In this document: piece by piece, positions 1 through 23,060 of the stretch
How positions within the stretch are numbered: position 1 is the first letter of the stretch
How the letters are laid out: each line of letters opens with the position of its first letter
From: a virus
Virus record (IMG/VR): IMGVR_UViG_3300020478_000072
Span: 1 to 23,060 of that record
Strand: one strand, 5' to 3'
Length of the DNA: 23,060 nucleotides
Notes under the pieces: model-generated
Databases searched by the model: none
What the model was told of the DNA's origin: nothing
Seen by the model: only the letters and a program-made list of their open reading frames with translations
Translations under genes and position numbers: made by a program

Positions 1-2
1 TT

Positions 3-419
3 GGTTATAAAGTAAAAGATGTATTAAGATTAAAATTTAATATGATACAACCACATCCAGATTTCAAAGAAGGTATGTATAACACAGCACATATTGATGA
101 TGAAGAAATGGCACAACATTTTGTTTTAATTTATTATCCAATAGATTCTGATGGCGATACTTATTTGTTTAATGAGAAATTTGATAAGCTAAAGAAACCA
201 GAAAAACTAACTATACATAAGAGAATATCACCAAAAGCAAATAGGTGTATTATGTTTAAAGGAAATAGATTCCACGCAAGTGCTAATCCAATGAAAAATG
301 AAATGAGAATTGTTTTAAATTGTAATTTTTCTTTATTAGAAAAAGAAGAGTTTAATGAACATAATAGAGATACAAGAAATGATCCTTTTAAAGGAACAAG
401 TATAGAAGGTAAAGACTAA
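3..419 (+). CDS. 2-oxoglutarate/Fe(II)-dependent oxygenase, 3' part (5' end outside window)
   Basis: The reading frame is open from position 3 through the first ATG (42) with no stop, so the gene very probably starts left of the window. The double-stranded beta-helix metal site is visible: an H-x-D pair (HID, about 17 residues after the ATG at 42), a distal His in the segment RFHAS, and an Arg about 11 residues later (EMRIV) in the usual place for binding 2-oxoglutarate. Members of this superfamily oxidise an amino acid, nucleobase or small molecule using O2 and 2OG; the substrate here cannot be told. It overlaps the next gene by one base (TAATG), suggesting translational coupling with the terminase genes. 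Small 2OG oxygenases are common in marine T4-like phages. Confidence 0.75.
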   Translation, partial: GYKVKDVLRLKFNMIQPHPDFKEGMYNTAHIDDEEMAQHFVLIYYPIDSDGDTYLFNEKFDKLKKPEKLTIHKRISPKANRCIMFKGNRFHASANPMKNEMRIVLNCNFSLLEKEEFNEHNRDTRNDPFKGTSIEGKD

Positions 420-904
420 TGGGAAAACTAGAAGACAAAGTAAATGATATTTTAGGCATTAAGGAAGAAAGTACTCCTGTCGCTGAATTAATGGTGCAAG
501 AGAAAAAAGTTCCTGTGCCTAGACAAGAGGATCCTAAAAAGGACGATATAGATAACGATTACAAATATAGTAGAGAGAATTATTATAATCTTATTGAGAG
601 AGGACAAGACGCAATACAAGGTATATTAGATGTTGCAAAAGAAGGACAACATCCAAGAGCATATGAAGTTGCAGGTGCATTAATTAAAAATGTAGCAGAC
701 ACCGTTGATAAATTACAAGACTTACAAGCTAAATTATCAAAATTAAAAGAGGTGCCTAATAAGACAACTGCCAATATCAAAAATGCTTTATTTGTTGGGA
801 GTACTACAGACTTGCAAAAGATGTTAAAAGATAAAAAAATTAAAACAACTTCAGAAACAATGCAAGATGAATTAGAACCAATAGAGACAAAAGATGATAA
901 GTAA
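419..904 (+). CDS. 16: Terminase small subunit, gp16-like
   Basis: 161 residues, close to T4 gp16 (164). The protein is highly charged. Its central helical region (about residues 53-110) resembles the gp16 core, including the segments NLIERGQDAI and HPRAYEVAGALIKNVAD followed by a coiled-coil-like LQDLQAKLSKLK. Gp16 oligomers recognise concatemeric DNA and regulate the gp17 packaging motor. It starts at a TAATG overlap with the upstream oxygenase and overlaps the gp17 start by 11 bases. The call rests on this motif plus its place directly before gp17. Confidence 0.88.
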   Translation: MGKLEDKVNDILGIKEESTPVAELMVQEKKVPVPRQEDPKKDDIDNDYKYSRENYYNLIERGQDAIQGILDVAKEGQHPRAYEVAGALIKNVADTVDKLQDLQAKLSKLKEVPNKTTANIKNALFVGSTTDLQKMLKDKKIKTTSETMQDELEPIETKDDK

Positions 905-2531
905 TGACGCATATTTAGGTAATCCTAATTTAAAAAAATCAGGTGTTCAATCCGAGTTCACAAAAGAACAGGTTGAGGAGTTTGCGAAGTGTAGTGGAGA
1001 CCCATTATACTTTATTAAAAACTATGTAAAGATTGTATCGCTTGATGAAGGTTTAGTTCCTTTCACAACTTATAAGTTCCAAGATAAGATGATTGATACT
1101 ATGCACAACAATAGGTTTTCAATCTATAAACTACCTAGACAAAGTGGTAAATCTACAACTATCATATCTTACTTATTACATTATGCGTTATTTAATCCCA
1201 ATTCAAGTATAGCAATTCTTGCCAATAAATCTTCTACTGCTAGAGATATATTGGGAAGATTACAACTAGCTTATGAAAACTTACCTAAATGGTTACAACA
1301 AGGTGTATTGAATTGGAACAAAGGTAATATTGAATTAGAAAATGGAAGTAAAATAGTTGCGGCCGCTACATCTTCAAGTGCTGTCCGAGGTGGTTCATAT
1401 AATATAATATTCCTTGACGAGTTTGCTTTCGTACCTACAACGATTGCCGAACAATTTTTTAGTTCTGTTTATCCTACTATTACTTCTGGTAAATCAACTA
1501 AAGTAATTATAGTATCAACTCCACACGGAATGAATCAGTTTTATAAACTATGGATAGATAGTGAGAACGGAAAAAATAATTATGTTCCATTAGAAGTACA
1601 TTGGTCAGAAGTACCAGGTAGAGACGCAAAATGGAAAGAAGAAACAATTAGAAATACATCGGAAGCACAATTTGCTAGTGAGTTTGAGTGTGAATTTTTA
1701 GGTAGTATAGATACATTAATAGCTGCCTCAAAAATAAAAGCGACACCGTATATTACACCACTTAAAACAAATGGTAGATTAAGTATCTTTGAAGAACCTG
1801 TAAAAGGCAACACATATCTATGTACGGTTGATGTTGCCAGAGGTACATTAAAAGATTATTCAGCATTTATTGTTTTTGATGTAACCAACTTGCCTTATAG
1901 AGTGGTTGCTACATTTAGAGACAATGAAATTAAACCTATGTTATTTCCAGAAATGATTGCTAAAGTATGTAAGCAATATGACAATGCACATATACTTGTT
2001 GAAGTAAATGATATAGGCGCTCAGATTTCAGATGGACTACATTTTGAAATTGAGTATCCAAATGTATTAATGACTACACAAAAAGGTAGAGCAGGTCAAA
2101 TCCTAGGTGCTATGTTCAGTCAAAGAGGAAGCCAATTAGGTGTTCGTATGACAAAACAGGTAAAGAAAATGGGTACTGCTAATATAAAATCAATTGTAGA
2201 AAGTGATAAACTAGTTATAAATGACTTCAATATTATAGAAGAAATGTCTACTTATACCCGAAAAAATCAATCTTGGCAGGCAGAAGAAGGTTGTAATGAC
2301 GACTATATGACCTGTCTAGTTATACTTGGTTGGGTTGCAAATCAAAGGTTTTTTAAGGAAATGACAGACAGAAACATACGAGCAGAAATGTACAAAGAAC
2401 AAGAGAAGTTAATAGAGCAAGATATGGCACCTTTTGGCTTTGTAGATGATGGTATAACCAAAGAGGAAGACAAACCGACCGTAGATGAATATGGAACGGT
2501 CTGGCATCCTGTAGTACGCAAAGGACAATAG
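894..2531 (+). CDS. 17: Terminase large subunit, gp17-like ATPase/nuclease
   Basis: DNA-packaging motor and headful nuclease. The N-terminal ATPase has the terminase-style Walker A RQSGKST (residues 82-88), Walker B IIFLDE (171-176) and a coupling STP motif (208-210). The C-terminal RNase H-fold nuclease shows its acidic residues in TVD (Asp313), VEVND (Glu370/Asp373) and CNDD (Asp469/470), matching the order of T4 D401/E458/D542. At 545 residues it is a little shorter than T4 gp17 (610). The start lies inside the end of gp16, as in T4. A GCGGCCGC octamer at 1359-1366, within codons for V-A-A-A, is unusually GC-rich for this genome. Confidence 0.97.
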   Translation: MISNDAYLGNPNLKKSGVQSEFTKEQVEEFAKCSGDPLYFIKNYVKIVSLDEGLVPFTTYKFQDKMIDTMHNNRFSIYKLPRQSGKSTTIISYLLHYALFNPNSSIAILANKSSTARDILGRLQLAYENLPKWLQQGVLNWNKGNIELENGSKIVAAATSSSAVRGGSYNIIFLDEFAFVPTTIAEQFFSSVYPTITSGKSTKVIIVSTPHGMNQFYKLWIDSENGKNNYVPLEVHWSEVPGRDAKWKEETIRNTSEAQFASEFECEFLGSIDTLIAASKIKATPYITPLKTNGRLSIFEEPVKGNTYLCTVDVARGTLKDYSAFIVFDVTNLPYRVVATFRDNEIKPMLFPEMIAKVCKQYDNAHILVEVNDIGAQISDGLHFEIEYPNVLMTTQKGRAGQILGAMFSQRGSQLGVRMTKQVKKMGTANIKSIVESDKLVINDFNIIEEMSTYTRKNQSWQAEEGCNDDYMTCLVILGWVANQRFFKEMTDRNIRAEMYKEQEKLIEQDMAPFGFVDDGITKEEDKPTVDEYGTVWHPVVRKGQ

Positions 2532-2547
2532 TATAGATTTGGTTAAT

Positions 2548-2555
2548 CATAAATA
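2548..2555 (+). promoter_or_regulatory. Possible late promoter (CATAAATA) upstream of gp18
   Basis: One mismatch from the T4 late consensus TATAAATA. It lies in the 139-base gap before the sheath gene, where a late promoter would be expected. Predicted initiation near 2561 would leave a leader of about 110 nt. Weaker than the exact boxes at 8164, 8850 and 11517. Confidence 0.4.
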
Positions 2556-2621
2556 TAAGCAATTGAGAAATTTGAATATGGGCGTATGAATAATACGACT
2601 TTTGAACAATAAGGTAAATTA

Positions 2622-2641
2622 TGTATTTAAATTTAAATACA
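2622..2641 (+). repeat. 20-bp perfect AT-rich palindrome in gp18 leader
   Basis: Positions 2622-2641 read the same on both strands and contain two overlapping TTTAAA units. The palindrome ends 15 bases before the gp18 ribosome-binding site (AGAGGAG, 2656-2662), so it could form an AU hairpin in the leader or bind a dimeric protein. A smaller inverted repeat, CGTAT-GAATA-ATACG, lies at 2583-2597. Function unknown. Confidence 0.6.
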
Positions 2642-2670
2642 AAAACAAATAATAAAGAGGAGAAAACCTA

Positions 2671-4611
2671 ATGGCATTTCAAGTATCACCAGGAGTTCTC
2701 GTACAAGAAAAGGATTTAACTAATATAATCCCAGCTGTATCTACTAGTATTGGAGCATATGCTTTCAATTCTACAAGAGGTCCAGTAGGAGAGGTAACAC
2801 TTATCTCTTCCGAACAAGATTTTGTTAGTGTTTTTGGAAAACCAACTGCAAGCAACTTTGAAGAGTATTTTACTGCTTCATCTTTCCTTCAGTATTCCAA
2901 TGCCCTAAAAGTTGTACGAACAGAAAATACTGGTATAAAAAACGCTGTAACCAATTCAGGTACAGCACTATTGATCCGACACACGGATCATTATAGTTCT
3001 ACATACTTAGCGGATGGTGCTTATACAGGAATCTCTGGCATTGAGTTTGCTGCTAGAACAGCGGGAGCTTGGGGTAATGGATTAAAAGTATCTGTTTGTC
3101 CTTCAGCGACTGCTTATGAACAAGAAGGCGTAACCACGGTTTCTGATTCAGCTGTAGCAGTAGGCGATACACAAATCACGGTAGCAAGTGGAACCAACAT
3201 TGGTGTTGGTGACATTATATCTTTCTCATCTACGGCAGGAACTAACGACTATGATGACGGCCTAGAATACGAGGTTACTAATGTTTCATCTAACGATATT
3301 ACATTTAAGAAAAAAGTAGGTACTGGTGGACTTGGAGCAATCTGTCCAAACGGTGCTAATGTAAGACGAAGATGGCAATATTATGACCAAGTAAATGGAG
3401 CACCTGGAACATCTCCAGATGTTGAAAAAGCAGGAAGAAGTAATGACGAGCTACACTTGGTTGTTGTGGATGCAGACGGTTCAGTAAACGGTACTAAAGA
3501 CGAAGTATTAGAGATATACGAAAAAGTATCAAAGGCAAAAGACGCCAAGGATGCAGGTGGTTCAAATAATTTCTATGCAGAAGTTATTTACAGAAAATCA
3601 TCTTTCATCTATTGGGGAGACCACAACGCAAACGGAACTAATTGGGGAGATTCAAAAACGGCAGCTACTTCTGCTTATACAGATGTTACCGCTCCTATCG
3701 CACTAACCTTTTCTGGTGGTGTAGATGGTACGGTTACTGATGGAGCAAGAAAGACTGCGTTTGAGAAATTTGCTGATTCAGAAACGGTTGATGTTGGATT
3801 AATAATGGCTGGAAACGCTTCCGCTACTTTAATCGGTGATTTAATTACAATCGCTGAACAAAGAAAAGATTGTGTAGTGTTTGCTAGTCCTGAAAGGTCC
3901 GATGTAGTCAACATCACTTCTGCGATAACACAAACGAAAAATGTATTAGCATTTTTTAATACAATTCGTTCATCATCTTACATAGTTTTTGATAGTGGTT
4001 ACAAATATACATACGACAGATATAACGATGTCTATAGATATGTTCCACTAAACGGAGATATGGCTGGCTTATGTGCTAGAACAGACCTAACTAACGATCC
4101 TTGGTTTAGTCCTGCTGGATTAAATAGAGGTATTATTAGAGGTGCTGTTAAATTGGCATATAGTCCTAATAAAACTCAAAGAGACGAGTTATATAGAGCT
4201 AGAATCAATCCTGTTGTTTCATTCCCTGGACAAGGTATTATCTTGTTTGGAGATAAAACTGGATTAACTACTCCATCTGCGTTTGACAGAATCAATGTCA
4301 GAAAATTGTTTATCGTATTAGAGAAGGCAATCGCTACTGCTTCTAAATTCCAACTATTTGAATTCAACGATGAATTCACTAGAGCTGGTTTTAGAAATAT
4401 GGTAGAACCTTTTTTAAGAGAAGTACAAGGTAGACGAGGTATCACAGACTTTTTAGTAGTGTGTGATGAAACTAACAACACAGGCGAAGTAATTGATAGA
4501 AATGAATTCATTGCTGAGATTTATATTAAACCAGCAAGAAGCATTAACTTTATCACATTATCTTTCGTTGCAACGAGAACTGGCGTGGCTTTTGAAGAAG
4601 TCGCAGGTTAA
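2671..4611 (+). CDS. 18: Contractile tail sheath protein, gp18-like
   Basis: 646 residues, against 659 for T4 gp18. The N terminus (FQVSPGVLVQEKDLTNIIPAVSTSIGA) is the typical sheath opening that interlinks neighbouring subunits. The C-terminal domain shows the conserved block with LYRARINPV, GIILFGDKT and NVRKLFIVLEKAI, followed by a final beta-rich segment. The sheath surrounds the tail tube and contracts during infection. The middle third (about residues 100-250) is the variable, surface-exposed part. Translation starts at an ATG behind a strong AGAGGAG site. It is followed 23 bases later by the tube gene, as in T4. Confidence 0.96.
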   Translation: MAFQVSPGVLVQEKDLTNIIPAVSTSIGAYAFNSTRGPVGEVTLISSEQDFVSVFGKPTASNFEEYFTASSFLQYSNALKVVRTENTGIKNAVTNSGTALLIRHTDHYSSTYLADGAYTGISGIEFAARTAGAWGNGLKVSVCPSATAYEQEGVTTVSDSAVAVGDTQITVASGTNIGVGDIISFSSTAGTNDYDDGLEYEVTNVSSNDITFKKKVGTGGLGAICPNGANVRRRWQYYDQVNGAPGTSPDVEKAGRSNDELHLVVVDADGSVNGTKDEVLEIYEKVSKAKDAKDAGGSNNFYAEVIYRKSSFIYWGDHNANGTNWGDSKTAATSAYTDVTAPIALTFSGGVDGTVTDGARKTAFEKFADSETVDVGLIMAGNASATLIGDLITIAEQRKDCVVFASPERSDVVNITSAITQTKNVLAFFNTIRSSSYIVFDSGYKYTYDRYNDVYRYVPLNGDMAGLCARTDLTNDPWFSPAGLNRGIIRGAVKLAYSPNKTQRDELYRARINPVVSFPGQGIILFGDKTGLTTPSAFDRINVRKLFIVLEKAIATASKFQLFEFNDEFTRAGFRNMVEPFLREVQGRRGITDFLVVCDETNNTGEVIDRNEFIAEIYIKPARSINFITLSFVATRTGVAFEEVAG

Positions 4612-4634
4612 TAGGTAAAGAGGAGAAATAAAAA

Positions 4635-5162: not shown

Positions 5163-5168
5163 TAGTTG

Positions 5169-5176
5169 AATAAATA
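5169..5176 (+). promoter_or_regulatory. Possible weak late promoter (AATAAATA) before gp20
   Basis: One mismatch from TATAAATA, in the 39-base gap between the tube and portal genes. The same octamer also occurs inside coding sequence (for example within uvsW), so this is suggestive only. Confidence 0.25.
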
Positions 5177-5201
5177 ATAAAGAACAAGTGAGGAAAACAT
5201 A

Positions 5202-6725: not shown

Positions 6726-6735
6726 GAGAAAAAAT

Positions 6736-7122
6736 ATGGCTGATAATGAAACAAAACAGACAGATACAGAAAAGTTTGTTGATAAACTTGCAAGTGGTGA
6801 TAACAAAAGTGCTGGTGAAGCATTTAAAGACGCATTAAGAAATAAAGTTGGTGACGCTTTGGATGCTAGCAGAAAAGATTATGCGAGTAATCTATTTAAT
6901 GCTGCTAGGGATGTTATGACACAAACGCCTGGACAGGCAGAACCTCATTCGGATCCTAAACCAGAAGTGGCTGATCCGATTGCTCAGACTGCAACAAGGG
7001 ATGATGTACAAACAGCAATGACGCCAGATGGAGCTGCTAATGCTACACCTGCTGATACGGCACCTGCCGAAACAGCACCTGCAGAAGCACCTGCTGATTC
7101 TGGTTCAGAACAAAGTAATTAA
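6736..7122 (+). CDS. 67: Prohead core protein, gp67-like
   Basis: 128 residues. Residues about 12-58 (including KFVDKLASGDNKSAGEAFKD, then ALRNKV and LFNAARDVM) match the pattern of the T4 gp67 helical core: a short stretch with Lys/Asp, 'A..AF..AL..K..DAL', and a second helix of similar spacing. It sits immediately after the portal, where gene 67 sits in T4. The T4 protein (80 residues) has an acidic tail. Here the tail is instead low-complexity Ala/Pro/Thr/Glu with repeated APAET/APAEAP units (about residues 95-120). Gp67 helps form the scaffolding core and is degraded by the prohead protease. An AGGAG ribosome-binding site precedes the ATG. Confidence 0.65.
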   Translation: MADNETKQTDTEKFVDKLASGDNKSAGEAFKDALRNKVGDALDASRKDYASNLFNAARDVMTQTPGQAEPHSDPKPEVADPIAQTATRDDVQTAMTPDGAANATPADTAPAETAPAEAPADSGSEQSN

Positions 7123-7136
7123 CAGGAGAATAAAAA

Positions 7137-7373: not shown

Positions 7374-7378
7374 GAAAT

Positions 7379-7750
7379 ATGACTTTAGTTGTCAATACAA
7401 AAGTTGATGACACCAATAAGGCAATTATAACTGCTAGTGGTGTAGGCGAAGATAGCGGAACTTTATTTAGCTCCGACAAGAGTATATCATTAGCGAATGT
7501 ATATTATGAGATAAGAGGAAATGATTACGAAAATGAAATCTATCCAAAAGTGACTCTTACACTCGGAGACCAAACTTTAGTTTTAGAAAGGTTTGGTAAT
7601 TGGGGATTAAAAGAAGGAGAAGCACGAAAGGTTATAGACCAAAAATTAGATACGGCTACTGAATTAAAAGTTTCTGCTGATAAAGAAGTTAGTAAGTTTG
7701 ACTTGGCAGTAGAAGTACAAAAAGAAACAGAATTAGGACCAAATAGTTAG
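7379..7750 (+). CDS. Hypothetical beta-rich protein
   Basis: 123 residues, family not recognised. Alternating hydrophobic strands (TLVVNTKV, NKAIITASG, ANVYYEIRG, PKVTLTLGDQTLVLERF) suggest an all-beta domain, followed by a charged helical tail (EGEARKVIDQKL onward). It begins 5 bases after the preceding stop with only a weak ribosome-binding site, so translation is probably coupled. Position among the head genes suggests a minor virion or assembly role; this is inference only. Confidence 0.65.
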   Translation: MTLVVNTKVDDTNKAIITASGVGEDSGTLFSSDKSISLANVYYEIRGNDYENEIYPKVTLTLGDQTLVLERFGNWGLKEGEARKVIDQKLDTATELKVSADKEVSKFDLAVEVQKETELGPNS

Positions 7751-7760
7751 AGGATAAAAA

Positions 7761-8908: not shown

Positions 8909-10069
8909 ATGGCCGAAACAGAAAAAAGTGTTAGCGAAAACACGGTAGCAGACGCTCCTAAAAAGAACGCTGTTCCTGCTGAGCCAACGCCATTGAAAAA
9001 TGACGCTGAGGATTTAGGTAAAGCTGTAGTTAAACCTACAGACGAAAACCCTAAAGCTAACGCAAGCACAAAAGAAGTTTCTGGACAAGCACCCCAAAAG
9101 AACGAAGGTAAGCCAGACGCTATGCCTACTCTTAAAGGTGAAGAGAAAGAAACTGATTCTGAAGGCAAGAAGATTTCCGAGGGAGAAATGCCTGACGGTC
9201 TAAAAAAATTCCTAGATAAGAAAGACGACAAAAAAGAATCTAAAGACGCTGAAGTTAAAGTATCTAAAGATGATGAAGTCAAGTCTGAGGAAAAAGATGA
9301 CCAGAAAGCAAAAGATGTTGATGTAAAAGAACACATTGACGCTTTAACCTCTGGAGAAAAAGACTTGTCAGAAGAATTTAAAGCCAAAGCTGCTACTATA
9401 TTTGAAGCTGCTATCAAATCTAAAGTTAGAGAGATAGAAGAATCAATGGAAGCAGATTATAATAAAAAATTTGAAACTGAAAGTACTAAGCAAAAATCAG
9501 AACTTGTTGAAAAAGTAGACAATTATTTGAACTATGTTGTCAATGAGTGGATGAAAGAAAACGAACTTGCTATTGAAAAAGGTATCAAGGGAGAGATTGC
9601 TGAGGACTTCATTAACGGTCTGAAAAAACTTTTTGAAGACCACTATATAGATGTACCTGATGAAAAATATGATGTGTTAGAAGACCAAGCTTCTAAAATA
9701 GAAGAGTTGGAAAAAAAACTTAACGAAGAAATCGGAAAAAATGTTGAATTGAACAAAAAAGCAAATATGCTTGAGAGAACTGATATTTTAGCTGATGTTG
9801 CTTCTGATTTAGCAGACACTTCAAAAGAGAAGTTTGCTAAACTTACAGAAGAAGTTGAGTATTCCGACGCTGATAGTTTTAGAAAAAAATGTGAGACTAT
9901 TAAAGAGTCTTACTTTGGATCTAAAAAAGAAGCTAATTCTGACAGCGAAGTAGATAATGCGGTAGCTGGACAATCTAATGAACAAAATTCAGAAGACTTG
10001 TCTAATGCAATGGCTGCTTATACTACCGCTATTAGTAAAACTAAAGACATTAAGTTGTCTGTAAAATAA
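8909..10069 (+). CDS. 22: Prohead scaffold core protein, gp22-like
   Basis: 386 residues (T4 gp22: 269), extremely rich in Lys, Glu, Asp and Ala. The first about 135 residues are low-complexity, charged and probably disordered. The rest is helical (CDVKEHIDAL onward; LFEDHYIDVPDEKYDVLEDQ; a coiled coil with KIEELEKKLNEEIGKNVELN near residues 270-290). The segment FINGLKKLFEDHYIDVP is typical of gp22 from marine T4-like phages. It forms the internal core on which gp23 assembles and is proteolysed by gp21. The protein is longer than in T4 because of the N-terminal charged extension. It sits directly between gp21 and gp23, behind a strong AAGGAG site. Confidence 0.9.
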   Translation: MAETEKSVSENTVADAPKKNAVPAEPTPLKNDAEDLGKAVVKPTDENPKANASTKEVSGQAPQKNEGKPDAMPTLKGEEKETDSEGKKISEGEMPDGLKKFLDKKDDKKESKDAEVKVSKDDEVKSEEKDDQKAKDVDVKEHIDALTSGEKDLSEEFKAKAATIFEAAIKSKVREIEESMEADYNKKFETESTKQKSELVEKVDNYLNYVVNEWMKENELAIEKGIKGEIAEDFINGLKKLFEDHYIDVPDEKYDVLEDQASKIEELEKKLNEEIGKNVELNKKANMLERTDILADVASDLADTSKEKFAKLTEEVEYSDADSFRKKCETIKESYFGSKKEANSDSEVDNAVAGQSNEQNSEDLSNAMAAYTTAISKTKDIKLSVK

Positions 10070-10090: not shown

Positions 10091-11428
10091 ATGTATTTAT
10101 CTGAAAACTACCAAAAAAAATGGCAGCCAGTATTAGACCATCCTGATTTACCAAAAATCAGCGATAGCTACAAAAGAGCTGTAACCTCGGTTATCTTGGA
10201 AAACCAAGAAAGAGCACTTAAAGAAGACGCTCAATTTATGGCCGAAGCTGCTCCTGCCAACGCTACAGGTGCTAACATTGCTAACTGGGATCCAATCCTA
10301 ATTAGTTTAGTTAGACGAGCTATGCCAAACCTTATCGCTTACGATATTGCTGGTGTACAACCTATGAGCGGACCTACTGGACTTATTTTCGCAATGAGAA
10401 GCAGATACAAAACTCAAGGCGGAACTGAAGCATTATTTGACGAAGCTGAATCTAAATTTTCTGGAAACGCTGCTAACGCAAACATTCCTGGAAGTGCTGG
10501 TACTTCTTCAAATTCACCTGCTCAAAACAACCCTGGTGTATTAAACGACTCACCTGCTGGAACTTATACTTCTGGTTCAGGTATGGCGACTAGTGCTGCT
10601 GAAGCACTTGGAGATTCTGCTGGAAACGCTTTTGCTGAAATGGCTTTCTCAATTGAGAAATCAACGGTAACTGCGAAAAGTAGAGCTCTTAAAGCAGAAT
10701 ACACAATGGAACTTGCACAAGACCTTAAAGCAATTCACGGATTAGACGCTGAGACAGAATTAGCGAACATCTTATCTGCTGAAATCCTTGCTGAAATTAA
10801 TAGAGAAGTTGTTAGAACAATTTACATTAATTCAGAAAAAGGTGCTCAAACGGACACAACTAACGCTGGAATCTTTGATTTAGATACAGACTCTAACGGT
10901 AGATGGTCAGTTGAGAGATTTAAAGGTTTAATGTTCCAATTAGAGAGAGACGCTAACGCTGTTGCTCAAAGAACCAGAAGAGGTAAAGGGAACATAATCG
11001 TTTGTTCTTCTGATGTTGCTTCTGCTCTTCAAATGGCTGGCATCCTTGACTATGCTCCTGCACTTAATAACAATCTAAATGTTGATGACACAGGCAATAC
11101 TTTCGCTGGTGTTCTTAACGGTAGATTTAAAGTGTATATAGACCCTTACTCAGCAAACCAAGCTGCTAAACAATTTTATGTAGTTGGTTATAAAGGAACT
11201 TCTCCTTATGACGCTGGTATGTTCTATTGCCCATATGTACCTTTACAAATGGTTAGAGCAGTTGGCCAAGACACTTTCCAACCAAAAATCGGTTTCAAAA
11301 CAAGATACGGCTTACAGGCAAATCCTTTTGCTGAAGCTAGTGCTTCTTCTGACGCTGTGATTGATGGTGCTGGTGCTGCTAACTCTAACAGATACTACAG
11401 AAAAGTACAAGTTGTTAACCTTGCGTAA
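10091..11428 (+). CDS. 23: Major capsid protein, gp23-like
   Basis: 445 residues (T4 gp23: 521). Strong agreement with gp23 in LVRRAMPNLIAYDIAGVQPMSGPTG, KSRALKAEYTMELAQDLKAIHG, AEILAEINREVVR, FKVYIDPYSA, YKGTSPYDAGMFYCPYVPL and the C-terminal FQPKIGFKTRYGLQANPFAE. The N-terminal about 52 residues form the scaffold-binding delta domain. The best gp21 cleavage candidate is after Glu52 (FMAE/AAPA). It is more GC-rich and uses more codons ending in C or T than neighbouring genes, as expected for a very highly expressed gene. It follows gp22 by 21 bases with a GAGAGAGGA ribosome-binding site and ends just before a strong terminator. Confidence 0.98.
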   Translation: MYLSENYQKKWQPVLDHPDLPKISDSYKRAVTSVILENQERALKEDAQFMAEAAPANATGANIANWDPILISLVRRAMPNLIAYDIAGVQPMSGPTGLIFAMRSRYKTQGGTEALFDEAESKFSGNAANANIPGSAGTSSNSPAQNNPGVLNDSPAGTYTSGSGMATSAAEALGDSAGNAFAEMAFSIEKSTVTAKSRALKAEYTMELAQDLKAIHGLDAETELANILSAEILAEINREVVRTIYINSEKGAQTDTTNAGIFDLDTDSNGRWSVERFKGLMFQLERDANAVAQRTRRGKGNIIVCSSDVASALQMAGILDYAPALNNNLNVDDTGNTFAGVLNGRFKVYIDPYSANQAAKQFYVVGYKGTSPYDAGMFYCPYVPLQMVRAVGQDTFQPKIGFKTRYGLQANPFAEASASSDAVIDGAGAANSNRYYRKVQVVNLA

Positions 11429-12648: not shown

Positions 12649-13212
12649 ATGAATTTAGAGAAACTATACTGGCGACAGGACGGTCTATTCGATTCTTCTT
12701 TTATTAAGAAAGTAAAAGAATTAGCTAGTCAACAGAAATTAAAAGACTTACAATTACAAGATAAAAACCGAGAACTATTAACTAGAGATAGTAAAGGTTG
12801 TTTTATAAACAGCACTTGGTTACAAACTCAATTAGCTCCTGTTATTAACGATACAAATAAAACTTTAGGTTGGAACTTTAAACTATCAAAGTTTGAAGAT
12901 TTACAATATACATCATACGATAAATCACAACACTATTCTTGGCATACAGATACACACGCTAAACCATATGCAGATGGTATGGTTAGAAAAATTAGTTTCT
13001 CTTTAATATTAAATGAAGAATTTGAAGGTGGTGACTTTGCAATATGTGAACCACATCCAGACCATACTAAATCAATAATACATAGATTTGAAAAAACAAA
13101 ACCAGGTACTATTATAGTATTCTATTCTGGTTTATGGCATAAAGTTTATCCTGTTAAATCAGGACAAAGACAATCACTAGTAGGTTGGACATTAGGTTCC
13201 AAATTTCAATAA
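12649..13212 (+). CDS. 2OG-Fe(II) oxygenase, prolyl-hydroxylase-like
   Basis: 187 residues. Double-stranded beta-helix dioxygenase with H99-T-D101 (in YSWHTDTH), distal His164 (SGLWHKVYPV) and Arg174 for 2OG binding, preceded by the strand GTIIVFYS. The strand SFSLILNEEFEGGDF is typical of the prolyl 4-hydroxylase / PKHD-type subfamily. It would hydroxylate a protein or small-molecule substrate, which cannot be inferred here. It sits between uvsY and uvsW, starts 2 bases after uvsY and overlaps uvsW by one base (TAATG), so it is an integral part of this operon. It is not part of the T4 core and is presumably an accessory gain. Confidence 0.9.
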   Translation: MNLEKLYWRQDGLFDSSFIKKVKELASQQKLKDLQLQDKNRELLTRDSKGCFINSTWLQTQLAPVINDTNKTLGWNFKLSKFEDLQYTSYDKSQHYSWHTDTHAKPYADGMVRKISFSLILNEEFEGGDFAICEPHPDHTKSIIHRFEKTKPGTIIVFYSGLWHKVYPVKSGQRQSLVGWTLGSKFQ

Positions 13213-15189: not shown

Positions 15190-15219
15190 TAGATATAATC
15201 TCTTTATAGACTCTATCTC

Positions 15220-15265: not shown

Positions 15266-15302
15266 TAGTCCAACAATCGGGACCGAAATTTTAGTTAGGT
15301 TA

Positions 15303-15331: not shown

Positions 15332-15340
15332 GAGAACATA

Positions 15341-15919: not shown

Positions 15920-15920
15920 T

Positions 15921-17239: not shown

Positions 17240-18938
17240 TATAACCTGGAAGAACTTTTTATCAACAGGTAATACTCCTATAAGTGTTAATCTAGCAGAA
17301 AAACCTACAACATTAATTATTGGAACTAATGGGTCAGGTAAATCAACATTGTTAGACGCAATATGTTTTGCTTTGTTTAATAAACCATTTAGAATTATTA
17401 AGAAAGACCAGATGGTCAATACGATTAATAATGCTGATACCGTAGTAGAATTAAACTTTAGTGTAGGTCCTAAAAAGTATAAAGTTGTTAGAGGAATTAA
17501 ACCTAATGTATTTGAAATATACCAAGACGGAATTTTAATTAACCAAGACGCAAGTACTATAGACTATCAAAAACATTTAGAAAAAAATATAATGAAACTA
17601 AACTATAGGTCCTTTTGTCAAGTTGTTATTTTAGGGTCTTCTTTATATGAACCATTTATGAAGATGAGAGCAAGGAATCGTAGAGAAGTAATTGAAGAAA
17701 TATTAGATATTAAAGTATTTCAAAATATGAACTACTTATTAAAGAGCAAACAAAACGATTTAACAAAAGACATTACTACATTAAGACATCAAGTAGATTT
17801 GATTGAGAATAAAGTTGAACTACAAGAGAAACATTATAATGAATTACAAGGTAGAGATACAGACGCTATATCTAAAAAGAAAGAAGACATAGAAAAAGCA
17901 CATAGTCATAAGAGAGATTATATGACTAGAATAGAAAGTCTTAATAAAGAACTTAATGAGAACGAACAGAAATTATTAGGCAAGACAAAGACAAAAGATA
18001 AGTTTACACAATTACATAAGTTAGAAGCAAAGATAGACCAGAACTTAAAGACACATAAGAAGACATTAAAGTTTTTTGAAGACAATACTAGTTGTCCTAC
18101 TTGTACACAGGAGATAGAACAAGGTTTTAGACAGACAAAGATTAGTGAGGAGAAAGACGCTGTATCTAAATTACAAGATGGTTATAAAAAACTATTAACA
18201 GAAATAACTAATACAGAAGAAGAAATATTAGGATTTGATAACATTGCACAAAAAGTTAGAACTATAGAAACTAATGTTGCAAAACTAACTACTTCTATTG
18301 ATGAGATTAAAAGACATACAGATAGAATACAAGATGAGATAGATAGATTATCAGTTGAGGATGCTGGCGGCCTAAATATAAAAGAAGAAATTGCTAAACT
18401 AAAAAGAGAATTAGTTGACGCAAAAGTACAAAGAGATAATGTTATTGAGGAGAAAAAATATATTGATATATTGAGACAGATAGTAGACGATAGTGGAGCA
18501 AGAGCACAAATTATTAAAAAGTATTTACCGATTATGAATACTTTAATTAATAACTATTTACAAGCTATGGACTTCTTTGTATCATTCCATTTAGATGAAG
18601 AATTTAACGAAACGGTTAAGAGCAGACATATGGACTCCTTTAACTACAATAACTTTAGTGAAGGTGAAAAGATGAGAATAGACCTTGCATTATTATTTAC
18701 TTGGAGAAGTATTGCAAAAATGAAAAATAGTGTTAATACAAACTTACTAATATTAGACGAGATATTTGATTCAAGTTTAGATGGACAAGGAACAGATGAC
18801 TTCTTTAAAATTATTAAGACACTATCAAAAGAAAACATCTTTATCATATCACATAAAGGAGATATAATGTTTGATAAATTTACTAATATAATTAAATTTG
18901 AAAAGTACCAAAACTTTACGAGGATAGCAAATGTCTAA
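17223..18938 (+). CDS. 46: Recombination nuclease subunit gp46 (Rad50-like ATPase)
   Basis: 571 residues (T4: 560). SMC/Rad50-type ABC ATPase with the N-terminal ATP lobe (Walker A GTNGSGKST, 34-42), a long coiled coil (about 170-420) interrupted by the zinc-hook CPTC (Cys291/Cys294), and the C-terminal lobe with signature FSEGEKM (478-484), Walker B LLILDE (508-513), D-loop SLDG and switch His544. It powers DNA end processing with gp47. The start is embedded in the preceding small gene, and the end overlaps the deformylase start by 8 bases. Confidence 0.97.
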   Translation: MIIFHNITWKNFLSTGNTPISVNLAEKPTTLIIGTNGSGKSTLLDAICFALFNKPFRIIKKDQMVNTINNADTVVELNFSVGPKKYKVVRGIKPNVFEIYQDGILINQDASTIDYQKHLEKNIMKLNYRSFCQVVILGSSLYEPFMKMRARNRREVIEEILDIKVFQNMNYLLKSKQNDLTKDITTLRHQVDLIENKVELQEKHYNELQGRDTDAISKKKEDIEKAHSHKRDYMTRIESLNKELNENEQKLLGKTKTKDKFTQLHKLEAKIDQNLKTHKKTLKFFEDNTSCPTCTQEIEQGFRQTKISEEKDAVSKLQDGYKKLLTEITNTEEEILGFDNIAQKVRTIETNVAKLTTSIDEIKRHTDRIQDEIDRLSVEDAGGLNIKEEIAKLKRELVDAKVQRDNVIEEKKYIDILRQIVDDSGARAQIIKKYLPIMNTLINNYLQAMDFFVSFHLDEEFNETVKSRHMDSFNYNNFSEGEKMRIDLALLFTWRSIAKMKNSVNTNLLILDEIFDSSLDGQGTDDFFKIIKTLSKENIFIISHKGDIMFDKFTNIIKFEKYQNFTRIANV

Positions 18939-19749
18939 AAAAACAAGAAGACCAATGACGGTTGAAGAAGAAGAAAAATTTAAAGATGAAATGATGGCGA
19001 TGGCAGATAAACAATTAAAAGAAGGTACTCCAGATACGCAAGAAGGCGTGTGGGAAGATACAACCAACATCAAAGAAAAATTAGAAAAACAAGCAGAAGA
19101 GAATAAAATTTTGCAAGAAGTACCAGTAGAAGATATACCTTACGAAGTAAGAGACGGAGTTAATCCACAGACATTTAATAAACAATTAATAGAACCAGCT
19201 AATCCTATGTTAAGGACTCCTGTTGCACCTTATAAAGATGAACTACTTAAAGAGTTTGGTATTAAAGATAGAAAAGAATTAGTAGCTAGTATGTTTGAAC
19301 TTATGCACAAATATGGTGGAATAGGTTTGAGTGCGATACAAGTAGGATTACCTTTTAATATGTTTGTTGCAGGTGACCATCAATCAATTGAAAAAGGTAT
19401 GAAACTTGCGATGTTTAATCCTGTAATATTATCAACTAGTGAAGAAACGGTTATGATGAAAGAAGGTTGTTTAACTTTTCCTTTCTTATTCATTAACATT
19501 GTTAGACCTAGAAAATGTGTTATGAAATACGAAGATGAAAATGGCGATTTAAAAGAAGCACATTTAGATGGTATGATGAGTAGAGTATGCCAACACGAAT
19601 ACGACCATCAAGCAGGAATACTAATGCCAATGAAAGTTAGTAAAATGAAACTAGACTTGGCATATAAAAAAGCAGAAAAAGAAATGACAAAGTGGAGACG
19701 ATATAAGAAACAAATGGAAAAATCAAAACCACAAAAGGTGAGTAAATAA
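18931..19749 (+). CDS. def: Peptide deformylase with N-terminal extension
   Basis: 272 residues. All three deformylase motifs are present: GGIGLSAIQVG (129-139; usual GxGLAAxQ), EGCLTFP (178-184; usual EGCLS, with the metal-ligand Cys180) and QHEYDH (221-226) with the metal His and catalytic Glu. It should remove formyl groups from nascent proteins. Residues 1 to about 85 are an extra charged, mostly helical region absent from ordinary deformylases (about 170 residues) and from the small phage forms. A Lys-rich C-terminal helix follows the catalytic core. It starts inside the end of gp46 with a GAGGA ribosome-binding site. A phage deformylase may help maintain host proteins, but its target is not shown. 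Confidence 0.93.
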   Translation: MSKKTRRPMTVEEEEKFKDEMMAMADKQLKEGTPDTQEGVWEDTTNIKEKLEKQAEENKILQEVPVEDIPYEVRDGVNPQTFNKQLIEPANPMLRTPVAPYKDELLKEFGIKDRKELVASMFELMHKYGGIGLSAIQVGLPFNMFVAGDHQSIEKGMKLAMFNPVILSTSEETVMMKEGCLTFPFLFINIVRPRKCVMKYEDENGDLKEAHLDGMMSRVCQHEYDHQAGILMPMKVSKMKLDLAYKKAEKEMTKWRRYKKQMEKSKPQKVSK

Positions 19750-20231
19750 TGGTTGAAATAATTAATGACATATCACAAATAAAAGATTTTGATTCTTTTA
19801 AACACGATGGTTTTGAAACAGGTTTATTAAATGTTGATAATACAGCGTTTGATGATACAAGATGGCCTCCGTTAAAGAAAGAGTTTTTAAACGATAAAGC
19901 AAAACAAGAAATAGAAAAGATTAAAGCTCAATTAGAACCAATTTTTAAAAAGAGATACAATAATATAAAATTAAGAAATACTGGTATCTGGCAAGGTTAT
20001 GTTGAAGGTGTACGAGGTAATGTTATAGTCTACCTAGATAAGGCACCATATACTACAGATAACTTTATTGAGGTAACAGCACTAGACAGATGTAAAATAT
20101 TTCCAGAACAAGGAGAATATGTTTGGTTTAACGATAACATAAAATTTCATAGAAGATTTAACAACGATGAGGTAAATAATATAAGGTTTATATACTTTGA
20201 TTATAAATTGACCAATGACAATGATGAGTGA
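19749..20231 (+). CDS. Hypothetical protein, possible divergent beta-helix (DSBH) fold
   Basis: 160 residues. Not firmly recognised. The C-terminal half (GIWQGYVEG, NVIVYLDKAPYTTDNFIEVTALDRCKIFP, GEYVWFNDNIKFHRRF, IRFIYFDYKL) has the strand rhythm of a double-stranded beta-helix, with a His in the distal-ligand position (FHRR) and a following Arg (NIRF). The H-x-D pair of active 2OG oxygenases is missing, so it may be inactive or another cupin-like protein. It overlaps the deformylase stop by one base and the following fusion gene by 17 bases, so it is translated as part of the accessory operon. Confidence 0.6.
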   Translation: MVEIINDISQIKDFDSFKHDGFETGLLNVDNTAFDDTRWPPLKKEFLNDKAKQEIEKIKAQLEPIFKKRYNNIKLRNTGIWQGYVEGVRGNVIVYLDKAPYTTDNFIEVTALDRCKIFPEQGEYVWFNDNIKFHRRFNNDEVNNIRFIYFDYKLTNDNDE

Positions 20232-21417
20232 TAAAGACTTGCAAGAGTACGAAGATAATATTAAAATGATGAAAGAAAAGGAAATGAAACCTTGGCAAAA
20301 AGGATTTGATTTAGATTATCTAAAGAAGTTAGAAAAGAATTTTAATAGTTATAACAAGTATGCTCAACACGAATTAAGTAAGTTTAAAAAGAACAATATT
20401 GCTGAAGCATTGAGTAGAGATAATATTCAATTAATAGGTCCAGCACTTATCCACGCAGAAGAAACAAAGAGTAAAGTAAATATATGGATGTTTCCAGGAG
20501 TACTTTTAGGTACGAAGTATCCAGGAGACTTACACATTAAACATTTAGGTTATACAGACGAACAAGATAGAAAGAATATTATCACAACATTAACAGAAGA
20601 TATAAGATACATAACTAAAAATGTATGGTTATATATTAATGAAGAAAATCCTAACGATAAAGATATTGCTGAAAAAGCAGGATTTAAAAAAGTAGGTGCC
20701 AAATACAATTCAGTTGCAGATTTGATTGGTGTTTATTTTAAAGATTCTAATAGTGCTTTAGAAGATAGACAACACCCACATATTCCAACTTACGAAAAAT
20801 ATACATTAAAACCACTTGACCTAGACTTCACAAAAATAGTACCAAAACTTGCAAAACAATTAGAAGAAAAATCACTAGAGTTTACCAATCACTATTCAAA
20901 CTATAATAAAGAAAAAGCTTGGAGTGCTATATCATTAAGAGGTTATAGTCCTGATTGGAGATTTATTACCAAACCAGTAGAAATGAATAAGAAGTGGCAA
21001 GAAGAAAATAAAGATGAAAAATTTGAATTACAAGATACAGAATTAAGAAAAGAGTTTCCATTAGTTGAAGATATACTATCTTCATTTAAAACTGAAATAC
21101 ATAGAGTTAGATTTATGAACTTAAAACCAGGTGATGGAGAACTTGAAAGACATACAGACCAAGTTGATCCAGACCTAGGAATATCAAATGGAAGATTAAT
21201 GAGATTACATATTCCTATTGTAACCAATTCAAAAGTAGAGTTTACAAGTTGGGGTACAACAGGAAGTAAAACAATTGTTAATATGGAAGAAGGACATTGT
21301 TGGTATTTGGATATAAGAAAACCACATAGAGCAATCAATGGTGGAAATTCTTGGAGAACTCATTTAGTTATAGATGTAGTTGCTAATGAACAAGTGAGAG
21401 GATTACTATGCACATAA
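20215..21417 (+). CDS. GNAT-like / aspartyl(asparaginyl) beta-hydroxylase fusion
   Basis: 400 residues. The C-terminal domain (about 200-400) carries the aspartyl/asparaginyl beta-hydroxylase signature: RVRFMNLKPGDGELERHTD (Fe ligands H313 and D315), RLHIPIVTN, an acidic MEEGHCWYLD, KPHRAINGG (distal H371) and RTHLVIDV (Arg381). The N-terminal part (about 70-178) looks like an acetyltransferase fold, best at NVWLYINEENPNDKDIAEKAGFKKVGA, a GNAT-type helix-plus-'AGF' strand. The hydroxylase family acts on Asp, Asn or Arg side chains or free amino-acid derivatives. Several ATGs cluster at the start (20215, 20221, 20224) and none has a clear ribosome-binding site, so the exact start is uncertain. 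Translation is coupled to the upstream gene. Confidence 0.82.
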   Translation: MTMMSDKDLQEYEDNIKMMKEKEMKPWQKGFDLDYLKKLEKNFNSYNKYAQHELSKFKKNNIAEALSRDNIQLIGPALIHAEETKSKVNIWMFPGVLLGTKYPGDLHIKHLGYTDEQDRKNIITTLTEDIRYITKNVWLYINEENPNDKDIAEKAGFKKVGAKYNSVADLIGVYFKDSNSALEDRQHPHIPTYEKYTLKPLDLDFTKIVPKLAKQLEEKSLEFTNHYSNYNKEKAWSAISLRGYSPDWRFITKPVEMNKKWQEENKDEKFELQDTELRKEFPLVEDILSSFKTEIHRVRFMNLKPGDGELERHTDQVDPDLGISNGRLMRLHIPIVTNSKVEFTSWGTTGSKTIVNMEEGHCWYLDIRKPHRAINGGNSWRTHLVIDVVANEQVRGLLCT

Positions 21418-22322
21418 CACCAGTAGATTATAGAGAAGGTATATACTGGAAACGAGACGACTTATTTAAACCATTTGGAGATTATGAAGTTAATGGTGGT
21501 AAAGTAAGACAGGCATTAAAATTATTTGAAACAAAATTAGACGATATAAGAAACAAACATAATAACGGAGTTATAACTGCCGCTTCAGTACACTCTCCAC
21601 AATCAGCAAACATAGGTAAAGTGGCACAGAAATATGGTGTAAAATGTATTGCCGCTGTAGGTGGAACTAAACCAGAAAATTTAGATAAACTTCCTCAAAT
21701 GAGATTAACAAAACATTATGGTTGTGAAATTAGAATAGTTGCAGGCCACGGAATGACTGCCGTTATTCACGCAAGGATGAAAGATATAGCTAAAGAAACT
21801 GGTTATATGCCTATTGAAATGGGTGAGTTATTAAAAACAAATCCAAAAGAAGTATTTGAAGCAACAGCAGAACAAGTACAAAATATACCAGATGAGTTAG
21901 ATAATCTTATTATACCTACAGGTGTTGCAATTCAAACTGCTGGAATTTTAATTGGACTTAAAAGATACAATAAGAAAGTAAAGCGTATTGTTTGTGTATG
22001 TGTAGGTCCTACAAGAGAAAAGAAACTTGCAGGTTATTTTAAAGATGTTTATGAAGATGATATAAAAAACTATCATCCATTTGAAATGATTGCTCATAAG
22101 GCACCTTATTCAAAATCTATGAACTTTAAAATTGAAGGAGAATACATTGATGATATTTACGAAGGTAAAGCATACGATTGGTTGTTAAAGAATATAGATT
22201 ATAAGAAAGAAAAAACTATGATGTGGTTAGTGGGTAAAAGACCAAGAACGGATGAGATAGAACATTTAATATCAGAAAAGAAGATTATTGAAAATGAAAC
22301 ACGCAACAATAGAAGACTTTGA
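21408..22322 (+). CDS. PLP-dependent ACC deaminase / D-cysteine desulfhydrase-like enzyme
   Basis: 304 residues. Fold type II (tryptophan synthase beta-like) PLP enzyme: WKRDDLF and NGGKVRQAL with the Schiff-base Lys32, the asparagine loop as HSPQSANIGKVAQKYG (62-77), the phosphate-binding region PTGVAIQTAG (170-179, replacing the usual Gly-rich 'SGGT'), and the terminal YEGKAYDWLL typical of this subfamily. Relatives deaminate 1-aminocyclopropane-1-carboxylate or desulfhydrate D-cysteine. It is slightly shorter than cellular relatives (about 330), and the changed phosphate loop makes the exact activity uncertain. It overlaps the hydroxylase fusion by 10 bases, behind GAGAGGA. Confidence 0.8.
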   Translation: MHITPVDYREGIYWKRDDLFKPFGDYEVNGGKVRQALKLFETKLDDIRNKHNNGVITAASVHSPQSANIGKVAQKYGVKCIAAVGGTKPENLDKLPQMRLTKHYGCEIRIVAGHGMTAVIHARMKDIAKETGYMPIEMGELLKTNPKEVFEATAEQVQNIPDELDNLIIPTGVAIQTAGILIGLKRYNKKVKRIVCVCVGPTREKKLAGYFKDVYEDDIKNYHPFEMIAHKAPYSKSMNFKIEGEYIDDIYEGKAYDWLLKNIDYKKEKTMMWLVGKRPRTDEIEHLISEKKIIENETRNNRRL

Positions 22323-22722
22323 TACAATTAAAAATATCTTCAAAGGATATAGAGATATATTTCCTTATTTAAGATTTGATAGTTTAAAGAATAAGGTTGA
22401 AGAAGGTAAAGTTATATACGATTCGGGTGTAGTTATAACTTATAATAAGTACAAAAGAAACCAGAAACTAGGTAATGTACAAGCTAAAAAAGGTGATATA
22501 GTTATACAAGAGATAGTAAAAGAGGAAGCTGGTAATAGCGTAGAGGTATTTAAGAGATTTGCAGATTTCGTAAAAGAAGATATTTGGTTAACCGTTAGAA
22601 GGGATAATCAAAAAGCTAAAAGGTTTTACGATAAGGTAGGTATGAAGGTAGTAGGTGAGGTTGTATGGTCTAAAGGAACCTTGATGGGAGATGTGTATAA
22701 GTACAGCATATTGACAAATTAA
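22294..22722 (+). CDS. GNAT-family N-acetyltransferase
   Basis: 142 residues from ATG 22294; the frame extends to an upstream TTG, but MKHATIEDFDTI is the usual GNAT opening. Residues 97-121 (IWLTVRRDNQKAKRFYDKVGMKVVGE) are the characteristic beta5-alpha4 region, where a conserved Asn and Tyr assist acetyl transfer. The acetyl-CoA loop (around EEAGNSV, 78-83) is degenerate. The substrate is unknown. The gene overlaps the PLP enzyme by 29 bases and closes the accessory operon. Confidence 0.82.
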   Translation: MKHATIEDFDTIKNIFKGYRDIFPYLRFDSLKNKVEEGKVIYDSGVVITYNKYKRNQKLGNVQAKKGDIVIQEIVKEEAGNSVEVFKRFADFVKEDIWLTVRRDNQKAKRFYDKVGMKVVGEVVWSKGTLMGDVYKYSILTN

Positions 22723-22739
22723 TAGGAAGCTGATAATAT
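22711..22739 (+). promoter_or_regulatory. Sigma70-type promoter for the terminal small-gene cluster
   Basis: TTGACA (22711-22716), 17-base spacer, TAATAT (22734-22739). The promoter overlaps the end of the GNAT gene. Predicted start is about 22746, the first base of the next ATG, implying a leaderless message. Confidence 0.7.
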
Positions 22740-22745
22740 AGTAAT

Positions 22746-22898
22746 ATGATAAAAATAATAGATTATCTGATAGACAAATTAACCAAGTTAAGGAATAGAC
22801 TAGATAGAAATAACTTTGTATCTATGCCTTTAACAGATACACCACAGGACGAGTGGTTAAAAGGATATTGGAAATGGCGAAAGCAAAACAAAAAGTAA
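22746..22898 (+). CDS. Small hypothetical protein (50 aa)
   Basis: Starts at ATG 22746 and ends at TAA 22896-22898. The sequence begins MIKIIDYLIDKLTKLRNRLD, an amphipathic basic helix, and ends with DEWLKGYWKWRKQNKK, a Trp-rich basic tail. No ribosome-binding site is seen; it would be leaderless from the promoter at 22711. The highly basic, Trp-rich composition suggests nucleic-acid or ribosome binding, but no family is recognised. Its 3' end overlaps the next small gene by 25 bases. Too short to be certain it is expressed. Confidence 0.55.
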   Translation: MIKIIDYLIDKLTKLRNRLDRNNFVSMPLTDTPQDEWLKGYWKWRKQNKK

Positions 22899-23041
22899 GA
22901 GAAAAGATATACGAGAGAAACCCTAACACAGGAGTTATTCGTTGGCGTTATGTAGGCGAAAGTCCTGATAAGTTTGGGTGGCCAAATTATGGAAGGATAT
23001 TGAAAGATGGAAAAAAACGAAAGATACTTAAAAGCACTTGA
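22874..23041 (+). CDS. Small basic hypothetical protein (55 aa)
   Basis: Start chosen at ATG 22874 with AGGA (22862-22865) at good spacing; an in-frame GTG at 22853 is less likely. The protein (MAKAKQKVREKIYERNPNTG, then VIRWRYVGESPDKFGWPNYG and a Lys/Arg tail) is strongly basic, with a central Gly/Trp/Tyr-rich strand region. It overlaps its neighbours on both sides, typical of tightly packed small phage genes. Function not recognised. Confidence 0.6.
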   Translation: MAKAKQKVREKIYERNPNTGVIRWRYVGESPDKFGWPNYGRILKDGKKRKILKST

Positions 23042-23060
23042 AAAGATGAAAAGTAAGAAA
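23007..23060 (+). CDS. Start of a further small gene, cut by window end
   Basis: ATG at 23007 preceded by AAGGA (22993-22997). Eighteen codons (MEKNERYLKALEKMKSKK) remain open to the edge of the window. The start lies within the preceding small gene in another frame. It looks like a charged helix; nothing more can be said. Confidence 0.5.
   Translation, partial: MEKNERYLKALEKMKSKK

Follow-up and report, generated by a model that had tools for sequence, protein, structure and literature searches.

What keeps two four-letter words, CATG and ACGT, entirely out of a stretch of viral DNA? The stretch (hereafter the window) is IMG/VR virus record IMGVR_UViG_3300020478_000072, analysed over its full 23,060 bases, and exact counting gives 0 CATG and 0 ACGT, as the initial annotation had reported; we find that this observation is correct and yet understates the loss. 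The pattern is probably best explained by elimination of Type II restriction sites, together with a less certain second layer, the shielding of sites at CC. Genomes in which a site is present would be cut and lost, so that mostly silent substitutions would have taken out nearly every copy, and purifying selection would still be clearing new ones; we infer both the agent, restriction enzymes of the host, and the hosts that would possess it.

Expectations were taken from 500 synonymous-codon shuffles that preserve proteins and codon usage. Counts are given throughout as observed/expected, with H for not G, D for not C, and "unflanked" for a site with neither a 5' G nor a 3' C. The shuffles bear out the earlier estimate that some tens of each word should be present, with means of 36.2 for CATG (minimum 22) and 40.4 for ACGT (minimum 27), and their absence is not expected, as neither word ever fell below 22. 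TCGA, found once against a mean of 40.3 (minimum 22), and CCGG, found 0 times against 11.3 (minimum 3), occur as first reported, and none of the 500 shuffles reached the observed value for any of these four words; CGCG (0/5.9, reached in 1 of 500 shuffles) is weak on the window alone. The codon shift described in the initial annotation is also real: histidine is written CAC in 21/21 cases before a codon starting with G and CAT in 77 of 101 cases before other codons, and none of the 238 ACG triplets on the plus strand is followed by T. Its list of lost words was right in what it named but incomplete, since ACWGT (0/32.8), CASTG (0/15.1), AGSCT (0/19.1) and TCDHGA (0/40.5) are likewise at zero and a further loss is limited by context, with HGATCD at 0/31.6, HGTNACD at 1/24.9, HCTNAGD at 1/35.5 and unflanked GATGC at 0/30 (both strands summed). 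Of the other palindromes that it listed as present repeatedly, GTAC (66/60) and CTAG (67/65) are unaffected, but AGCT (53/98.7) and TGCA (57/86.8) are reduced. Three of the patterns remain in the window as single copies.

12689..12692, no strand: the sole TCGA of the window, 40 expected
7549..7555, no strand: the sole GTNAC without a G or C flank, 24.9 expected
9284..9290, no strand: the sole CTNAG without a G or C flank, 35.5 expected

Six words (CATG, ACGT, TCGA, ACWGT, CASTG and AGSCT) have an observed/expected ratio below 0.1 with more than 15 sites expected, which marks site elimination, and the lost words are palindromic, Type II-like and eliminated on both strands. In one run alone, 608 palindromic patterns were tested; the words named here have effects far beyond the shuffles. 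Enzymes that recognise the avoided words, or longer sequences of which these are parts, include NlaIII (CATG), HpyCH4IV (ACGT), TaqI (TCGA), HpaII (CCGG), TspRI (CASTG), DdeI (CTNAG), MaeIII (GTNAC), HinfI (GANTC), MboI (GATC), SfaNI (GCATC), Hpy188III (TCNNGA), HpyCH4III (ACNGT) and Hpy99I (CGWCG); to our knowledge no restriction enzyme matches AGSCT.

The same bans hold elsewhere in the species. Contig G001 matches the window at 98% identity over ~17.7 kb and carries a further 32.6 kb outside it, in which we find CATG 0/53, ACGT 0/39, TCGA 3/45, CCGG 0/13, ACWGT 0/44, CASTG 0/17, AGSCT 0/24 and TCDHGA 0/45, and, for unflanked sites, HGATCD 0/42, HGTNACD 0/38 and HCTNAGD 0/39. The word list is therefore borne out by a separate stretch, and the loss spreads across 55 kb of the species. 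The more distant contig G003 (72.9 kb, about 83-84% nucleotide identity) has CATG 0/137, ACGT 0/143, TCGA 0/116 and ACWGT 0/145.

Ongoing selection was assessed by re-placing the differences between the window and its relatives like for like (same base change, codon position and synonymous class). The 325 differences from G001, of which 188 are synonymous, are expected to create ~26.8 forbidden words, and in G001 seven of the eight tested words are at zero, with four TCGA in 50.9 kb. Contig L005, with 702 differences and 56 forbidden words expected, has 4 (one TCGA, two CASTG and one TCDHGA). G002 and G003 differ at 1,541 and 1,569 positions, with 126 and 125 forbidden words expected; in both, CATG, ACGT and ACWGT each occur 0 or 1 times, and other words do occur, TCDHGA 14 times in G002 and, in G003, CCGG 33, CASTG 14 and TCDHGA 1 time, so that relatives ~84% identical share most bans but have gained or lost some. 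Shuffles and like-for-like placement together establish that the words are removed by ongoing purifying selection, not by composition. The earlier attribution to restriction in past hosts thus survives in part: restriction-type selection is well supported by the Type II-like words, the loss on both strands, the shuffles and the turnover described below, but it is not only past, given that G001 remains free of seven of eight words with ~27 expected.

Relatives were gathered with two window genes as queries.

10091..11428, plus strand: major capsid protein gene (gp23), query for relatives and for the tree
894..2531, plus strand: large terminase gene (gp17), the other query

These relatives are mostly fragments; contigs of at least 6 kb were kept, to the exclusion of shorter loci and of 21 duplicates on the list, and clustering at 95% identity reduced 115 T4-like contigs to 76, 61 HTVC019P-like contigs to 14 and 45 HTVC010P-like contigs to 32. 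Word sets vary among 80 related contigs. On a tree built from 84 capsid rows by a quick method with no bootstrap, with intermediate or unscorable rows excluded and the states of the window assigned by hand from its shuffle counts, the fewest changes are 8 for CATG (31 avoiding, 21 present), 7 each for CTNAG and CASTG, 5 each for ACGT, TCGA and GATC, 3 each for ACWGT, GTNAC and GANTC, and 1 for TGCA. Within the window clade (8 rows), 6/6 scored rows avoid CATG, ACGT, TCGA, ACWGT and GATC; L056 and L064 lie on a distant branch, yet also avoid the first four of these. The initial annotation had further suggested that the lost words may fingerprint the systems of the host. As a fingerprint of the host strain the set fails: Pelagibacter phages Mosig and HTVC008M share one recorded host strain, SAR11 HTCC1062, and differ in their sets despite this, with ACGT at 0/232 and TCGA at 79/185 in Mosig, and ACGT at 103/310 and TCGA at 2/200 in HTVC008M. 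Given these differences, and the report that SAR11 is almost without restriction systems (PMC7029224), the word set seems instead to reflect the past of the phage lineage itself.

A second regularity, unseen in the initial annotation, is that words escape loss when they overlap a CC or GG that has its first C within the word; the spared contexts in the T4-like relatives are GATC-C, GANTC-C, GTNAC-C, GCATC-C and TCCNGA (TCNGGA). Avoider contigs were chosen by depletion of the unflanked class (by loss of the inner pairs AA, TT and TA for TCNNGA, and of the inner A or T for ACNGT), so that only the other classes provide an unbiased test; classes are listed as no flank, one flank and both flanks (5' G, 3' C), and palindromic sites are counted on both strands. 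Among T4-like contigs, the GATC avoiders (41 of 100 testable) give 4/3111, 636/1849 and 294/173; the GANTC avoiders (7 of 107) 0/677, 140/179 and 22/21; the GTNAC avoiders (16 of 107) 4/916, 1188/702 and 94/89; the CTNAG avoiders (21 of 95) 10/1278, 396/543 and 46/59; and the GATGC avoiders (15 of 34) 24/822, 102/181 and 28/14. Where the 3' base is not C, GANTC is at 0 after every dinucleotide not ending in G, and so is GATC (only in contigs with one-flank sites at 25% of expectation or more). Inside TCNNGA (53 contigs), the inner pairs AC (4/145), AT (0/306), GA (3/113), GC (0/32), AA (18/752) and TA (0/567) are lost, CA (455/403), CT (472/452) and CC (31/37) are spared, CG (16/67) is partially so, and reverse complements are equal. 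CTNAG preceded by a C, which then lies outside the word, is not spared (5 of about 300). The picture is the same with one contig per 95% cluster, and in HTVC008M alone GANTC gives 0/412, 64/109 and 16/12. The rule was drawn from the flanks first and the inner split of TCNNGA came later, the prediction not having been recorded in advance.

The window itself obeys the rule, as shown by the splits at TCNNGA (AA 0/23 and TA 0/15 versus CA 16/11 and CT 11/13) and at GTNAC (2/49, 48/36 and 6/4). All 12 of its GATC sites carry a 5' G or a 3' C, as at the following GGATCC sequences.

529..534, no strand: GGATCC, spared GATC site with 5' G and 3' C
6951..6956, no strand: GGATCC, spared GATC site
10288..10293, no strand: GGATCC, spared GATC site

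The GATC sites (381-21166) look unevenly placed: the first 10.3 kb contain 11 of the 12, the other 12.8 kb only one. A mark at any C that follows G or C is ruled out, since TCGCGA, which contains GC, is at 0/32 while TCCNGA is spared; one-flank CATG (24/708) and CASTG (30/252), which are hardly spared, also contradict it.

The simplest cause of the sparing would be chemical modification of that C in phage DNA, blocking the cut, with a site escaping if a CC preceded by A or T overlaps it and has its first C inside it; here too we infer both the modification and the enzyme. Our proposal, tentative and somewhat short of probable, is that T4-like pelagiphages may carry an undescribed base modification at CC (A or T before), made by an enzyme that belongs to none of the known methyltransferase families, its position readable from the tolerated contexts. 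We place it at this level because genes of four modification families are missing from HTVC008M and Mosig, because there are exceptions to the CC rule and because HTVC010P-like phages provide contrary cases.

Several results weigh against shielding. The whole records of HTVC008M and Mosig contain no match to PF00145, PF02086, PF01555 or PF00303, and the sole methyltransferase-like string (NPPY or DPPY) in these two phages lies in a small protein of 153-177 amino acids, which in HTVC008M is DUF6433. GATGCC (3/98) and AGSCT are avoided although they contain CC, so that the rule would need an A or T before CC. CCGG, GCGC, CTNAG and CGWCG obey flank rules other than the CC rule: CCGG is reduced after A, C or T but survives after TG, whereas CTNAG survives after TG or CG, and CGWCG after AG or GG. 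With one contig per cluster, 12 of 27 GATC avoiders among the T4-like phages have flanked sites below 30% of expectation. The T4-like ACNGT avoiders lose ACWGT (0/677) and keep ACSGT (924/529), a case to which we give little weight because HTVC010P-like podophages show the reverse, eliminating ACSGT (10/343; ACCGT 1/88, ACGGT 9/255) and keeping ACWGT. Two of 18 HTVC010P-like contigs avoid ACGT with 0/45 at no flank and 10/23 at one flank, so a flank effect exists outside T4-like phages too.

Known routes to modified DNA were considered as sources. Phage methyltransferases were rejected: PF01555-like genes are present in G001, G008, G014 and G016, but HTVC008M and Mosig, which lack them, still follow the rule. 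The 7-deazaguanine and hydroxymethylcytosine routes found no support either, there being no such gene in the annotation of HTVC008M or Mosig (most of the records, not the extreme ends) and no PF00303 match. Among the methyltransferase-like genes, G001 encodes a 414-amino-acid protein with a TSPPY motif and a weak PF01555 match (positions 12332-13576 of L114), a 362-amino-acid protein matching PF01555 with an E value of 2.6e-38 (L114, 15123-16211), and a 386-amino-acid distant paralogue of the former (G001, 30842-31999); the first two both have relatives in G008, and the 414-amino-acid gene also in G014 and G016. Methylophilales phage Melnitz (L384, 405 amino acids, with a PF00145 match) and contig G013 (4101-5270) encode proteins whose SPPC motif resembles that of the CmoX family, known from the T4-like Synechococcus phage S-B43. 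No SPPC motif occurs in open reading frames of at least 100 amino acids in the window, G001, G003, G008, HTVC008M or Mosig, of which the window and contigs are incomplete genomes, while the joined sequences of HTVC008M and Mosig lack a few kb. Two HTVC008M genes (L134, 21550-22035, and L083, 22255-22737) are annotated as "DNA endonuclease V"; one matches the 2-oxoglutarate-Fe(II) oxygenase family PF13640, and the other has no Pfam match and only phrog_274, so that this annotation looks doubtful.

Restriction could also act as proposed with no phage modification at all, if the enzymes themselves refuse sites that overlap CC or GG and recognise, in effect, HGATCD, HGANTCD, HGTNACD, TCDHGA and ACWGT. 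We consider this credible without being probable. It is consistent with the lack of genes of four DNA-modification families in HTVC008M and Mosig, with the departure of CTNAG, CGWCG and CCGG from the CC rule, and with W- or S-specific avoidance in podophages too, namely the loss of ACSGT and, in HTVC019P-like phages, of GCWGC (17/1128) versus GCSGC (1367/268, fivefold over expectation). It needs, however, five or more unrelated enzymes (for GATC, GANTC, GTNAC, GCATC and TCNNGA) sharing one odd intolerance, and an intolerance limited to the enzymes that T4-like phages meet. HTVC019P-like podophages show little or no sparing at three of the same words: their avoiders give GATC 0/1382, 0/889 and 0/39, GANTC 18/1738, 6/414 and 0/20, and CTNAG 4/652, 22/305 and 6/34. 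Flanked sites exceed 30% of expectation (one contig per cluster) in 0 of 11 HTVC019P-like avoiders for GATC, 0 of 9 for GANTC and 0 of 4 for CTNAG, compared to 15 of 27, 5 of 5 and 13 of 14 in T4-like phages. The recorded host of HTVC019P is the same SAR11 strain, HTCC1062. In HTVC010P, CTNAG is absent in every flank class (0/82, 0/37 and 0/6).

HTVC019P-like podophages, about 42 kb in size (HTVC019P with loci among L142-L220, 61 contigs of at least 6 kb), eliminate five four-letter and seven five-letter words. GATC is absent in all (0/1466 in one count and 0/1478 in another), GGATG/CATCC is at 3/518, GGCC at 2/183, CCGG at 1/165, GGWCC at 0/56 and CCWGG at 0/63; T4-like phages keep GGCC (1424/1180), GGWCC (940/956) and CCWGG (1832/1773), while their CCGG (450/930) stands near half of expectation. 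The two groups may meet different enzymes. In the HTVC010P-like group (HTVC010P with loci among L222-L300, 45 contigs), the loss of ACCGT and ACGGT with ACAGT and ACTGT at normal levels is the opposite of what the window shows, and GGCC is at 1/143. CCGG is at 0 in all flank classes in 49-kb stretches of all three cyanophages P-SSM2, S-PM2 and S-SSM7 (L137, L138 and L139), in which the T4-like pelagiphages are unlike them. CGCG is nearly absent from the T4-like contigs (pooled ratio 0.01), and TCTAGA and TCATGA are low also outside the TCNNGA avoiders; the shortage of these three is possibly an older shared ban.

Far less likely is self-avoidance, in which phage-encoded, frequent-cutting nucleases destroy the host DNA, the phage escapes them by lacking the words, and no host restriction is involved; the complete absence of sites, the turnover between lineages and the rarity of restriction systems in SAR11 (PMC7029224) would all fit it. 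HTVC019P-like phages lose the five four-letter and seven five-letter words noted above, yet the annotation of HTVC019P names one endonuclease (many of its genes have no function assigned, and no nuclease search was made), which makes one enzyme per word unlikely. Mutation or composition, through codon or dinucleotide bias or deamination of methylated cytosine, is very improbable: the shortage of TGCA, AGCT and CGCG in many of the relatives would fit it, but the shuffles exclude codon usage, a dinucleotide model predicts 66 CATG and 48 ACGT, CATG and ACWGT contain no CpG, and G002, at equal GC content, keeps words that the window lacks (14 TCDHGA). Selection at the RNA level by mRNA-cutting toxins, in support of which nothing was found, can be set aside, since unflanked GATGC and GCATC are eliminated in both orientations within genes in two of five genomes (G001 0/47 and 0/19; G003 0/68 and 0/37) and strongly reduced in the other three (G008 9/131 and 1/76; HTVC008M 5/113 and 4/68; Mosig 8/89 and 5/60), and the remaining words are closed under reverse complement.

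Restriction-site elimination, which we prefer, has to be set against what is reported of the hosts. SAR11, the host of Mosig and HTVC008M, is described as poor in restriction systems, only one of >100 genomes encoding one (PMC7029224). No enzyme cognate to the avoided words was located in any host here; one scan of genome contigs for hosts returned three loci (one in each of two metagenome-assembled genomes and one in Endozoicomonas), none of them SAR11. About a dozen systems is also many for one host range.

The window encodes 28 likely genes, picked from a list of open reading frames, and they are ordered as in the block of structural and replication genes in T4-like pelagiphages, syntenic with Mosig; the genes named in this way are terminase, sheath, tube, portal, protease, capsid, UvsY, UvsW, gp55, gp47 and gp46.

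1..23060, no strand: whole window, T4-like marine phage fragment, likely genes all on the plus strand, names by synteny with Mosig and not by one-by-one search

The capsid protein is 82.1% identical to that of Mosig, 74% to Melnitz and 72% to HTVC008M, and judged by sequence the window is from a T4-like marine phage close to Mosig. A 304-amino-acid open reading frame (21408-22322) resembles, by eye only, a pyridoxal phosphate-dependent enzyme.

If the preferred explanation is true, widespread ocean phages face a large and changing restriction repertoire though their presumed SAR11 hosts are thought nearly free of it; the enzymes would then be present in wild SAR11 or in other hosts but absent from the reference genomes, unless the selection has some other source. 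The sparing rule would offer a means of detecting DNA modifications in metagenomic sequence, as words under lethal selection show where protection lies. For both points there are two existing isolates on which tests can be made, HTVC008M and Mosig.

Roughly one viral genome in ten is reported to show complete or near-complete site elimination (Rusinov et al. 2018, PMC6286503), and the window resembles the lytic-phage cases described there in being double-stranded phage DNA with palindromic, orthodox Type II-like words at ratios below 0.1 and more than 15 sites expected. It is unlike them in that about a dozen words are lost together, graded by overlap with CC or GG, and that the presumed hosts have no known cognate enzyme; the phenomenon is of a known kind, here extreme and context-graded. 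Pelagiphages are reported to be depleted in GANTC with no identified host restriction systems (PMC9516812), a similar case of SAR11 phages missing a methylation motif, although the loss reported there is of GANTC, whereas here many words are lost and HTVC008M loses GANTC only when unflanked. Among the matches listed (titles and abstract starts) in one open library, none concerns CC-dependent sparing or a base modification in HTVC008M-like phages. Phage S-B43 is described as carrying 5-carboxymethylcytosine, made via CmoX at a GC motif, which blocks restriction (PMC12783734); the likeness to the modification proposed here is a short-motif cytosine modification in a marine cyanobacterial phage, and the differences are a GC rather than a CC motif and an SPPC motif seen only in Melnitz and G013, with none in the window or its species. 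A difference from the chlorovirus cytosine methyltransferases M.CviPII and M.CviQIX is that HTVC008M and Mosig have no match to PF00145; these viral enzymes are reported to recognise CC and to mark the first C of CC(D) (PMC9636781), which is the very mark that the sparing rule would place in T4-like pelagiphages.

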